DNA of 33,372 nucleotides from Planctomycetota bacterium. GTDB taxonomy: Bacteria; Planctomycetota; Phycisphaerae; SM23-33; FEN-1343. Positions 27,965-31,099 of this stretch are shown piece after piece. The number at the start of each line of letters is the position of its first letter. Position 1 is the first letter of the stretch. Location of the stretch: the NCBI GenBank assembly GCA_012514895.1, contig JAAYZK010000361.1, positions 1 through 33,372 of the forward strand, given 5' to 3'. The translations under genes were made by a program, and so were the position numbers. The notes beneath the pieces are model-generated. The model was not told where the DNA came from and did not search any database. It was given only the letters and a program-made list of their open reading frames with translations.

Positions 27965-30900
27965 CTAACGGGACGGCCGCTCAAAGAAGTACGACTCCGG
28001 ACAGGTGTTGCCCGGCTCGTGGGCGATCCAGCCCGCCATCGAAAGCCGGGGGACATTTTTGAAGCCGCGGCGGACGTAGACTACCTGCCCCGGCGGGGTC
28101 ATCACCCCGATCACGTGCAGATCCCGGGCCAGCCGCTCGGCGAGGACCTGCCAGGCGTCCAGCTTGCGCTGCTCGTCCGGCGCCGCCACCATGATGTCCC
28201 AGAGCCGGTCGATCTCGCGGAGGAAGTCGGGCGGCTCGGTCCCACTGCGCCCGCCGCTGCGAAGGTAGGTCACCCACGTCGACCAGTGCCCGCACTCGGC
28301 CGGATGGGTCGGGGCGTAGAACCCCGGCTGCAGCGGGGCGTGAAAGTTGCCGCCCTCCCTCCGCAGGCCGATGTCGAGGATGCCGATGTCGATCATGCGG
28401 TTGATCAACGTCGCCCCGCGGACCTGCATGCGGGCCTCGATGCCCAGCCTCCGCCAGTGGGCGCAGGCCAGTTGGACCGCCGCCAGCGGCAGGGTGTCGT
28501 CGACGTCGACGTTGACGATCAGCGGCGTCCCGCCGGGCAGCAGGCGGACCCCGTCGGGGCTTCGCCCGGTCAGGCCCATCGCGTCCAGCAGCGCGTCGGC
28601 CCGGGCCGGATCGTAGGCCACCGACGCACCGGCAAGCGCTTCGCTGTAGTAAGGCGACCCGACCGGCGGGGCGCACTGGGCCGGCTCGCCGAGCCCGCCG
28701 AACACCACGTCGATGATCTCCTGCCGGTTCAGCCCCGAAGACAGCGCGTGGCGGAAGCGAGGGTCCTGGAAGACCTTCGCCAGTTCGGGATCCTTGTGGT
28801 TCTGCAGGGGGTAGAAGTTCATCTCCCCGCAGTAGTCCTGCGCCCACAGCCGCACCTCGTAGTCGCCCTGGGACTCGTGGGCCTTGAGGAACGTGAACAT
28901 GGCGAACGTCAGGTCGCGGACCTGGAAATCCACGTTGCCGCTGGCCATCGCCAGCAGCATGTTGGACTTCTCCGGCTCGATCTTGGTCAGGACGGCGTCG
29001 ATGTAGGGCAGTTGGTTGCCCGCGGCATCCACCCGGTAGTAGTAGGGGTTGCGCACGGCGACCTGGGTCCTGTCGATCGGGTCGGACACCAGCCGCCAGG
29101 CCCCCAGCGTCGGAACATCGGGGCTCTTGACGGGATGATAGGTCATCATCTGCCGATAGAGGTTGCCCCACCCGGTCAGATGGTCCGGGTGGTTCCGGGC
29201 GGCGTGGTTGAGCCCGTCCTCGCGGTTGACCGCCACCAGCGGCGCCTCCAGCGCCCGCTCGTCGAAGGCGGCGCGGAACATCGACTGGTGAAACGCGAAC
29301 CGCTCGCGGTCGCCCAGGCTGCCCGGCCCCTCGGCGGCGACGCGGGCCATCCAGTCGGCGCGGAGGAGCAGTTCGCGGAACAGGCGCCTCCTGGCCGCAT
29401 CCCGCCGAAGCGCCGAGACGCCGCCGGCGACCATGGCCTGCCGCTCGGCATCCCAGGGGACGCCGGCCCAGGCGTCGGCGGAGAAGAAGTCGCGCGACTC
29501 GAACACGGCGTTGAGGCCCTCGACGATCCGCGCCTTGTCGGCCTCCGCCGGCTGCTGCGGCGCCTGTTCGACCAGCCGGCGGACCTCTGGGTCGAGGTGC
29601 TCCCACACCTGCCTGCCGACCGACGGACGGGGGTCCTCCGCCTGCCGGCGGATCCGCTCGAACAGGCCCTGCCAGTCGAGAATGTCGGTCGCCGCCAGGC
29701 GGTTCGTGCCGGCCACGTGATACGGGGCGGAGTAGTGCTTCGGGGTCGAGAACAGGCCCCGGTAAGTCATGAAGGTGCCCGTCTGGGCCAGGAACAGCGC
29801 GTTGGGCCGCGGGAAGGTGAAGCGGATGATGTGGCTGGTGTCCCCGGTGCCGTCGTCGACGGCCTCGACGCGGACCTGCTTCACCCGCGCCCTGTCGACG
29901 CACCGGCGGTAGTGCAGGCGGAACAGCAGCAGGTTCAATTGCGCCCGCTCGGTCGCGGCCAGTTCCTCGCCGGCGGCGGCGCGACCGAACAGGTCGTTGC
30001 GCGTCATCAGCAGGATCGCGCGGTCCAGTTCCTCCTCCGTCAGGCGCGACAGCCCCGCCGCCCGCATCGCCTCCAGTTCGGCCGTCCGATCGTCGCCGCC
30101 CATCGCCTCGGCGTCGAAGAACGACGGGTTGCGGAAGGCCTGGTTCAGGGCCTTGACGATCCGGGCCTGGTCCGAGGCGTCGGGCGTCCGGCCGCCGGCG
30201 ACGGCCTGGAGCGGGACGGTCAGTTCATCGCCGAGCACCGTCGCCAGGCGCCGGCCCATCGAGGGCGCCGGCGAGGCGGCCTCGTCGAGGATCGCCCCGG
30301 CCAGCGCCGGCCAGTCGAGCACATCCTCCTCGTACAGCACGGCCCGCCCGTCGGTCCCCATCATCCAGCTCGGGATCTCCCCCCAGTACCCCTGGCCGAT
30401 GATGCTCTCGGTCACCCACAGGATGTCCTCGGTAGTGAACGGGTGCCCGTCGCTCCAGCGATGGCCCTTGCGAAGATAGAAGGTGTAGACGCGGTTGTTG
30501 TCGGCGACCTCCCACCGGTACGCCAGGCCGGGCTGGATCCGGCCGGCCGGGTCGAAGCGGATGAAGCTCTCGTAGCACAGCTTGCGGGTGAACTCCCAGA
30601 TCGAGTTGGTGCACCGCCGCCACGTGCCGCCGTAGGTGCCGATCCCGTCGGGGCCGACGACCACCGCGGGATTGACCGGCAGGCGATCGGCCACCGGCGG
30701 CAGCGTCCGGGGGAAGTGCCCGCGGAACTCGGGGTCCATGCAGGCCGGATCGTCCATGGCCGCCAGCATGGGCGCTTCGTTGAACGTGGAGATCTCGACG
30801 ATCCCCTCGCCCGGCTCGCCGGTCGGATCGGGAAAGCAGTCCCTGAAGGTGTCGCCGGGGAAGGCCTGCTCGAACGACAGGCCGGGCAGCGAGACGCGGC

Positions 30901-31099
30901 TGCGCGTGGGGCAGGGCAACCGGCCGGAGCGGGCCTCGGCGAGCACGTCGGCGACGGTGACGGCCCTCGTGGGCGCCGCGCCCTCGCCGACGGCCGCCCG
31001 ATCCGCGGCGTCGTCCCGCGTCAGCAGGACCTGCAGCAGCACGAGCGTTGCGCTGAAGCATAGGACGACGATGAGCAGCCTGCGCACCACCGTGACCAC
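27965..31099 (-). CDS. Very large ABC-transporter-type extracellular solute-binding protein (SBP_bac_5-like) with two insert domains
   Basis: 1044 aa; N-terminal hydrophobic segment; YTFYLRKGHRWSDGHPFTTEDILWVTESI, HKDPELAKVFQDPRFRHALSSGLNRQEIIDVVFGGLGEPAQ, YDPARADALLDAMGLTGRSPDGVRLLPGGTPLIVNVDVDD, ACAHWRRLGIEARMQVRGATLI. Confidence 0.85.
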   Translation of the reverse strand: MVTVVRRLLIVVLCFSATLVLLQVLLTRDDAADRAAVGEGAAPTRAVTVADVLAEARSGRLPCPTRSRVSLPGLSFEQAFPGDTFRDCFPDPTGEPGEGIVEISTFNEAPMLAAMDDPACMDPEFRGHFPRTLPPVADRLPVNPAVVVGPDGIGTYGGTWRRCTNSIWEFTRKLCYESFIRFDPAGRIQPGLAYRWEVADNNRVYTFYLRKGHRWSDGHPFTTEDILWVTESIIGQGYWGEIPSWMMGTDGRAVLYEEDVLDWPALAGAILDEAASPAPSMGRRLATVLGDELTVPLQAVAGGRTPDASDQARIVKALNQAFRNPSFFDAEAMGGDDRTAELEAMRAAGLSRLTEEELDRAILLMTRNDLFGRAAAGEELAATERAQLNLLLFRLHYRRCVDRARVKQVRVEAVDDGTGDTSHIIRFTFPRPNALFLAQTGTFMTYRGLFSTPKHYSAPYHVAGTNRLAATDILDWQGLFERIRRQAEDPRPSVGRQVWEHLDPEVRRLVEQAPQQPAEADKARIVEGLNAVFESRDFFSADAWAGVPWDAERQAMVAGGVSALRRDAARRRLFRELLLRADWMARVAAEGPGSLGDRERFAFHQSMFRAAFDERALEAPLVAVNREDGLNHAARNHPDHLTGWGNLYRQMMTYHPVKSPDVPTLGAWRLVSDPIDRTQVAVRNPYYYRVDAAGNQLPYIDAVLTKIEPEKSNMLLAMASGNVDFQVRDLTFAMFTFLKAHESQGDYEVRLWAQDYCGEMNFYPLQNHKDPELAKVFQDPRFRHALSSGLNRQEIIDVVFGGLGEPAQCAPPVGSPYYSEALAGASVAYDPARADALLDAMGLTGRSPDGVRLLPGGTPLIVNVDVDDTLPLAAVQLACAHWRRLGIEARMQVRGATLINRMIDIGILDIGLRREGGNFHAPLQPGFYAPTHPAECGHWSTWVTYLRSGGRSGTEPPDFLREIDRLWDIMVAAPDEQRKLDAWQVLAERLARDLHVIGVMTPPGQVVYVRRGFKNVPRLSMAGWIAHEPGNTCPESYFFERPSR
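29258..29686 (-). repeat. Insert-domain copy 2 within the solute-binding protein (about aa 472-614)
   Basis: DILDWQGLFERIRRQAEDPRPSVGRQVWEHL...DKARIVEGLNAVFESRDFFSADAWAG; aligns to copy 1. Confidence 0.75.
29903..30325 (-). repeat. Insert-domain copy 1 within the solute-binding protein (about aa 259-399)
   Basis: DVLDWPALAGAILDEAASPAPSMGRRLATVL...DQARIVKALNQAFRNPSFFDAEAMGG. Confidence 0.75.

Follow-up and report, generated by a model that had tools for sequence, protein, structure and literature searches.

An undescribed all-helical domain inserted in frame in unrelated planctomycete proteins, twice in one solute-binding protein, and its possible spread as a translated, MITE-like element

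By what route whole domains enter unrelated proteins is a long-standing and unsettled question. Among the systems described to date, Rickettsia palindromic elements (RPE) and other intragenic MITEs lie in frame in unrelated coding genes and are translated together with their hosts (reviewed in PMC10969869). At the protein level, the BEAN and HABAS domains of RNA polymerase represent a repeated, polyphyletic insertion in loops of unrelated proteins (PMC11515920). As for insertion sequences, ISArsp7, of the ISL3 family, is characterized by the inverted repeats GGCTCTTCGCGTTTCGTGGTGAAT and by 8-bp direct repeats (PMC6305408).

The DNA analyzed here (the window), a stretch of 33,372 nucleotides, lies in contig C307 of G000, a fragmented planctomycete bin that is 95% complete and 8% contaminated. 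As the first-pass annotation had claimed, it contains on the minus strand an ORF of 1044 aa (27965–31099), which begins with GTG and whose frame stays open further upstream. The only Pfam match of this protein is SBP_bac_5 (PF00496; E = 3e-46, 158.5 bits vs a curated cut-off of 32.4), and it has the same fold as the solved SBP_bac_5 peptide-binding proteins 5ipw and SPH1118 (7ver), but these consist of 619–633 aa and lack the two inserts of the window protein. From the N-terminus, all on the minus strand, a hydrophobic segment read from the sequence as a putative signal or anchor (aa ~7–26, 31022–31081) is followed by core part 1 (aa ~131–248, 30356–30709; aligned to 5ipw residues 35–142), insert 1 (aa 249–405, 29885–30355), core part 2 between the inserts (aa 406–462, 29714–29884; aligned to 5ipw 157–200, weakly on its own), insert 2 (aa 463–618, 29246–29713), and core part 3, the C-terminal lobe (aa 619–1044, 27968–29245; aa 657–1040 aligned to 5ipw 231–632). 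In this alignment, the step from chain residue 142 to 157 spans query residues 236 to 409, and that from 200 to 231 spans 462 to 657, so that both segments are clean insertions rather than normal parts of the SBP fold. The inserts had thus been located correctly, but their limits are better drawn as given here.

The first-pass claim that the two inserts resemble each other is right and was, if anything, understated. They are 34% identical over 140 aa (BLAST, 65.5 bits, E = 8e-19), their Smith–Waterman score of 161 compares with at most 62 among 1000 shuffles, and profile–profile comparison with four paralogs per insert gives a probability of 99.7% (E = 4.5e-26). AlphaFold2 predicts insert 1, modeled with ten SBP inserts, to be compact and all helical (pLDDT 92.1, pTM 0.88), and the model of the whole SBP core has the same order of helices in both inserts, in agreement with the proposal that the two fold as the same domain. 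The whole-core model, made from five sequences, has a mean pLDDT of 55 and is poor outside the inserts, and the placement of the inserts on the SBP is therefore left unclaimed. A helical, Arg/Leu-rich stretch, reported earlier as following each insert, is indeed present, but it forms the end of that domain and not a separate element.

In general, the domain comprises ~115–130 aa (~125 residues), and the SBP inserts contain in the middle ~35 extra helical residues that are missing from most other hosts. Over 186 copies, conservation is strongest at N65, N108-R109, P117, D5, and leucines, positions that read as structural rather than catalytic. None of 20 inserts tested matches any Pfam family, and no family in NCBIfam or PHROGs fits the domain. 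Among PDB sequences, the best hit (E = 0.067) is at chance level; neither PDB folds (best E = 0.3) nor viral folds match the model of insert 1, and a promiscuous insertion domain of planctomycetes was not found described in the literature. The insert domain is previously undescribed.

Within the window, there is no permease or ATPase gene of the Dpp type, as noted in the first pass. The suggestion of a re-purposed binding protein, however, is not supported by the relatives of the window SBP. G000 encodes three full-length paralogs (70%, 53%, and 53% identical), each with both inserts, and the closest of them (70%, contig C261) is followed downstream by dppB, dppC, dppD, and dppF. Double-insert relatives are also found in Planctomycetota (L130 and L133, the latter from a Phycisphaerae MAG), a Verrucomicrobia MAG (L131), and Kiritimatiellaeota B1221 (L132). 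A survey of their ABC permease neighbors revealed, immediately after the SBP gene, dppB, C, D, and F in L131, L132, and L133, and dppB in L130, where the contig then ends. The two other paralogs of G000 are orphans, as is the window copy. The window SBP is hence an orphan whose paralog is an ordinary subunit of a Dpp-type importer, and it probably serves a permease encoded at another locus. The proteins of L007 (5286–8687) and L130 (5993–9427) carry an extra N-terminal region with an apparent ~45-aa internal repeat (AWEATI..DRPMTMAALRDSLLEA/AWKATV..DGRPADANAVAALL), which is not present in the window SBP (27965–31099).

When profiles of the insert alone were searched outside SBPs, the domain was found in many unrelated hosts. 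It was first encountered in a MalG-type permease of G000, where it occupies a periplasmic loop; directly upstream of this gene (L010, contig C487, 6250–8925) lies an 891-aa ORF in which an SBP_bac_1-like binding protein is fused to a MalF-type permease. Within the same taxonomic order, the insert profile recovered RND pumps, HlyD-type adaptors, LepB, a PilO-like protein, a GT4 enzyme, and others; in search profile A6, used for searching only, the row of insert 2 was entered without its extra central helix to match the shorter form. With broader profiles, the domain was detected in 57/398 genomes of the window class, 95/393 of the phylum, and 35/390 of the phylum of Kiritimatiellaeota B1221. 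The phylum search found 7–11 copies per genome in some genomes, and per-genome matches in unrelated hosts reach E = 1e-20 to 1e-40. The fetched loci contain 186 distinct in-frame copies, representing 93 hosts with dissimilar flanks and 70 Pfam families, the families having been counted with the insert kept in the query (the 20 inserts tested match none themselves). Hosts include RND pumps, ABC and MFS permeases, flippases, kinases, and essential cytoplasmic and membrane proteins, namely SecA, LepB, LspA, CoxC, LptF, an FtsK-like protein, and a divergent second RpoC. Among the whole-genome matches listed for the domain profiles, none contains a stop codon or is out of frame. The insert domain is thus lodged in frame in ~70 unrelated families across Planctomycetota and Verrucomicrobiota.

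Several hosts have unusual features of their own. The RpoC-like protein (L224/L254, G839:C506) is strongly divergent and has an open frame of 2276 aa, and contig C33 of the same genome carries a more conventional RNA polymerase locus. Copies are also present in giant open frames of 14,875 residues (L086 and L125, G196:C142; adhesin-like) and 10,591 residues (L162, G465:C3). An MFS transporter (L092 and L096, from G263 and G364) carries in one loop two detected copies and, just upstream, an apparent third, degenerate one. In L200 (G926:C429), two tandem copies are 63% identical and each is preceded by a near-identical 10-residue linker (RLPxExPPLS); this tandem is a duplication of element plus flank.

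The freshest copies are L214 and L216, located in G839 in genes for an FHA kinase and a UvrD-like/TPR protein, respectively, and L186, in a PRK/uridine-kinase-like gene of G875. Despite their unrelated hosts, these copies are 47% (L214–L216) and 51% (L186–L216) identical at the protein level. The L214 element starts with GGTTCTTCGCTATTTTGTGTGGGTGA and ends, read inversely, with GGCTCTTCGCTATTTCCTGTGGGTAA, and the ends of L216 are near-identical. In both, terminal inverted repeats of ~25 bp, starting with GGYTCTTCGC or nearly so (one end reads GCCTCTTCGC), match at 22/26 positions in L214 and 21/26 in L216, where 300 synonymous-codon randomizations of the same proteins reach no more than 18 and 17, respectively; the 17/26 of L186 is not significant alone and suggestive only. 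Abutting the ends are 8-bp direct repeats, AAAGTTTA/AAAGTTTA in L214, GCAAAAGC/TCAAAAGC in L216, and GAGAAAAA/CAGAAAAA in L186, which match at 8/8, 7/8, and 7/8 positions, each level being reached by ~0.02–0.1% of random pairs. The elements are 346, 352, and 361 bp long, all 1 mod 3, and with the 8 duplicated bases they therefore add whole codons (a net gain of 118, 120, and 123) and keep the frame. The repeats themselves code for the two termini of the protein insert (SSLF..GD and YPQEIAKS) in these copies. Each element, at 346–361 bp, encodes one domain only and carries no transposase of its own. A scan of 740 kb of G839 for the 15-bp end (0–1 mismatch) recovers these ends and one solo 3′ remnant only. 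The latter (AAGATGCTTACCCACGTGAAATAGCGAAGAGCC) lies in the L216 ORF (G839:C447), ~300 bp upstream of the insert and without a recognizable domain body, and is a footprint or deletion remnant. The DNA identity of the three elements (73–75%) was dropped as evidence, as their flanks are equally alike in the same gapped alignment.

Taken together, we put at roughly 65% the probability that the all-helical domain, of which the two inserts of the window SBP are copies, spreads as a MITE-like DNA element that is in frame and translated, and that is most likely old. According to the proposed mechanism, an element of ~345–360 bp with ~25-bp ISL3-like terminal inverted repeats would be moved in trans by a transposase, presumably of the ISL3 type, and its integration would duplicate 8 bp of the target. 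With a length of 1 mod 3, element and duplication would amount to whole codons. Because the element would be open in that frame and encode a self-folding domain, a host protein could tolerate a landing in that frame at a surface loop or within a variable stretch and keep working, and the copy would survive; all other landings would be lost. Older copies, including both in the window SBP, would have arrived by the same route.

One filled/empty site is directly observed. SecA of G906 has 117 extra aa, whereas its counterparts in G875, G839, and G814, 71–74% identical and from the same family, are contiguous there (PLxLC|E). This SecA insertion is thus polarised, the same family having the site in both filled and empty form; the filled site has no obvious target duplication. 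In general, inserts are 31% similar between different hosts of one genome vs 26% between genomes.

Inverted repeats are significant in only 2/182 testable copies, both from G839, and over all copies the terminal inverted repeats have means equal to random, while flank similarity, as a measure of target-site duplication, is 17.7 vs 17.0 for shuffled flanks. Neither inverted repeats nor ends are detectable in the two copies of the window. No transposase was found in or near the elements, and scanning 740 kb (~11%) of G839 by terminal repeat revealed no transposase, no transposase-sized element with the same ends, and no intergenic copy; viral contigs contain no copy of the 24-bp end. These all-copy nulls are expected if most insertions are ancient, and are equally compatible with another route for them. 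Since ends are visible in two to three copies only and no transposase was found, we infer the mechanism for the rest, the window copies included. Two further points stand against the translated element: zero out-of-frame copies demands strong purging of other landings, and the dN/dS values given below show stronger maintenance than a purely inert passenger would need, unless selection acts on folding only. Apparent duplication of the flanks, noted in GH129-type, HlyD, and RND hosts, is not above chance as a class. In GH129/GH101-related glycosidases (L073, L077, L082, L110, and L123), WGxGL-like residues before and WGDGxS-like residues after the insert resemble a short host duplication around it.

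In close ortholog pairs, dN/dS of the insert is mostly 0.07–0.5, about twice that of the flanks. The insert is thus under purifying selection, less strongly constrained than its host. Such selection is what would be anticipated if a promiscuous domain serving one function in all its hosts, such as docking or regulation, had been distributed by ordinary recombination and selected per host, not as mobile DNA. The conservation of N65, N108, R109, P117, and D5 over 186 copies points the same way, as does the fact that, in many genera, RND pumps, flippases, and FucP-type transporters carry the insertion at one conserved site. However, the hosts have no common compartment or pathway, extending from periplasmic loops to cytoplasmic SecA, kinases, a GT4 enzyme, and an RpoC homolog; the insert evolves ~2× as fast as the flanking host, and the youngest copies have inverted repeats and 8-bp repeats. 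We regard a shared function as unlikely, though deserving of consideration. The most likely role in the host is that of an inert or mildly modulating spacer.

Much less probable is that internal duplication suffices, the second SBP insert being copied from the first within the gene and the domain being otherwise an SBP feature. The extra ~35-aa helical part shared by both SBP inserts and absent from most other hosts would fit, but this reading leaves the other hosts unexplained, and copies in unrelated hosts, with E down to 1e-40, refute it as a full explanation. Moreover, SBP inserts at the same position are 39% and 35% identical across phyla vs 28% between position 1 and position 2; both insertions therefore predate the spread of the SBP family, as would any duplication.

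The junctions bear on a still more improbable proposal, that the insert is removed after synthesis by intein-like protein splicing or from the mRNA as an intron or bypass element, which could account for the fact that proteins as essential as SecA, LepB, and LspA carry insertions. In SecA, the insert lies in a variable stretch between GRGTDI and GGLHVxGTERH, where the alignment passes from residue 521 to 547 of the 6s0k chain (a natural variable loop); in CoxC, it lies between the first helices (chain 51 to 55), and in an RND pump, between two porter-region segments (chain 841 to 840), with the host sequence fully kept. These sites are loops or variable regions outside active sites, and the flanks upstream of inserts are enriched in Pro, Ser, and Gly, as loops would show. 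Column conservation of the 186 copies led to rejection of the intein and intron readings: there is no conserved Cys/Ser/Thr start or His-Asn end, and 118/186 copies contain no Cys at all. The insert is also in frame, under purifying selection at the protein level, and predicted to fold compactly. Assembly chimeras are a negligible prospect: although many of the genomes, that of the window among them, are fragmented MAGs, copies occur in single-contig, 99–100% complete genomes (e.g., G836, G1014, and G1137), which refute chimerism unless those are also wrong, insert GC tracks that of the host (r = 0.94), and orthologs of several genera have the same insert.

Given one domain in ~70 families, a polarised insertion in SecA, and transposon-like ends in the youngest copies, domain insertion by transposition becomes directly testable. 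The insert domain accounts for many oversized transporters and enzymes of planctomycetes and will disturb annotation and structure prediction in the Planctomycetota group; as a naturally tolerated insertion module, it is also of interest in protein engineering. With modest conviction, we favor the view that it is a mobile protein domain, that is, a transposable element that yields nothing but one domain able to fold on its own, codon-whole with its duplication and readable through both ends, which has long remodeled essential and membrane proteins in frame in the Planctomycetota–Verrucomicrobiota and is active now or was recently so in some genomes.

Compared with described systems, the ends of the G839 copies resemble those of ISL3 elements in that they begin with GGYTCTTCGC, continue like the ISArsp7 ends printed in PMC6305408, and are flanked by 8-bp direct repeats. 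Unlike ISL3 elements, they enclose no transposase gene, none was found nearby, and the element measures ~350 bp rather than ~1.4 kb. In kind, in-frame MITEs such as RPE appear to be nearest, as both are short DNA elements situated in frame in unrelated genes and translated within the host protein, a likeness in kind and description. RPE, however, are ~150 bp long, have been reported from Rickettsia, and encode a short peptide, whereas the element here measures ~350 bp, codes for what is predicted to be a compact folded domain, and extends over two phyla and ~70 host families. As a protein phenomenon, the nearest counterparts seem to be BEAN and HABAS, which contain beta structure, occur in a handful of ancient proteins, and have no known mechanism of insertion; the insert domain, in contrast, is all-helical in prediction, far more promiscuous, and provided with transposon-like ends. 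Thus, what differs from known systems is a complete predicted folded domain, the breadth of its hosts, and its taxonomic range.
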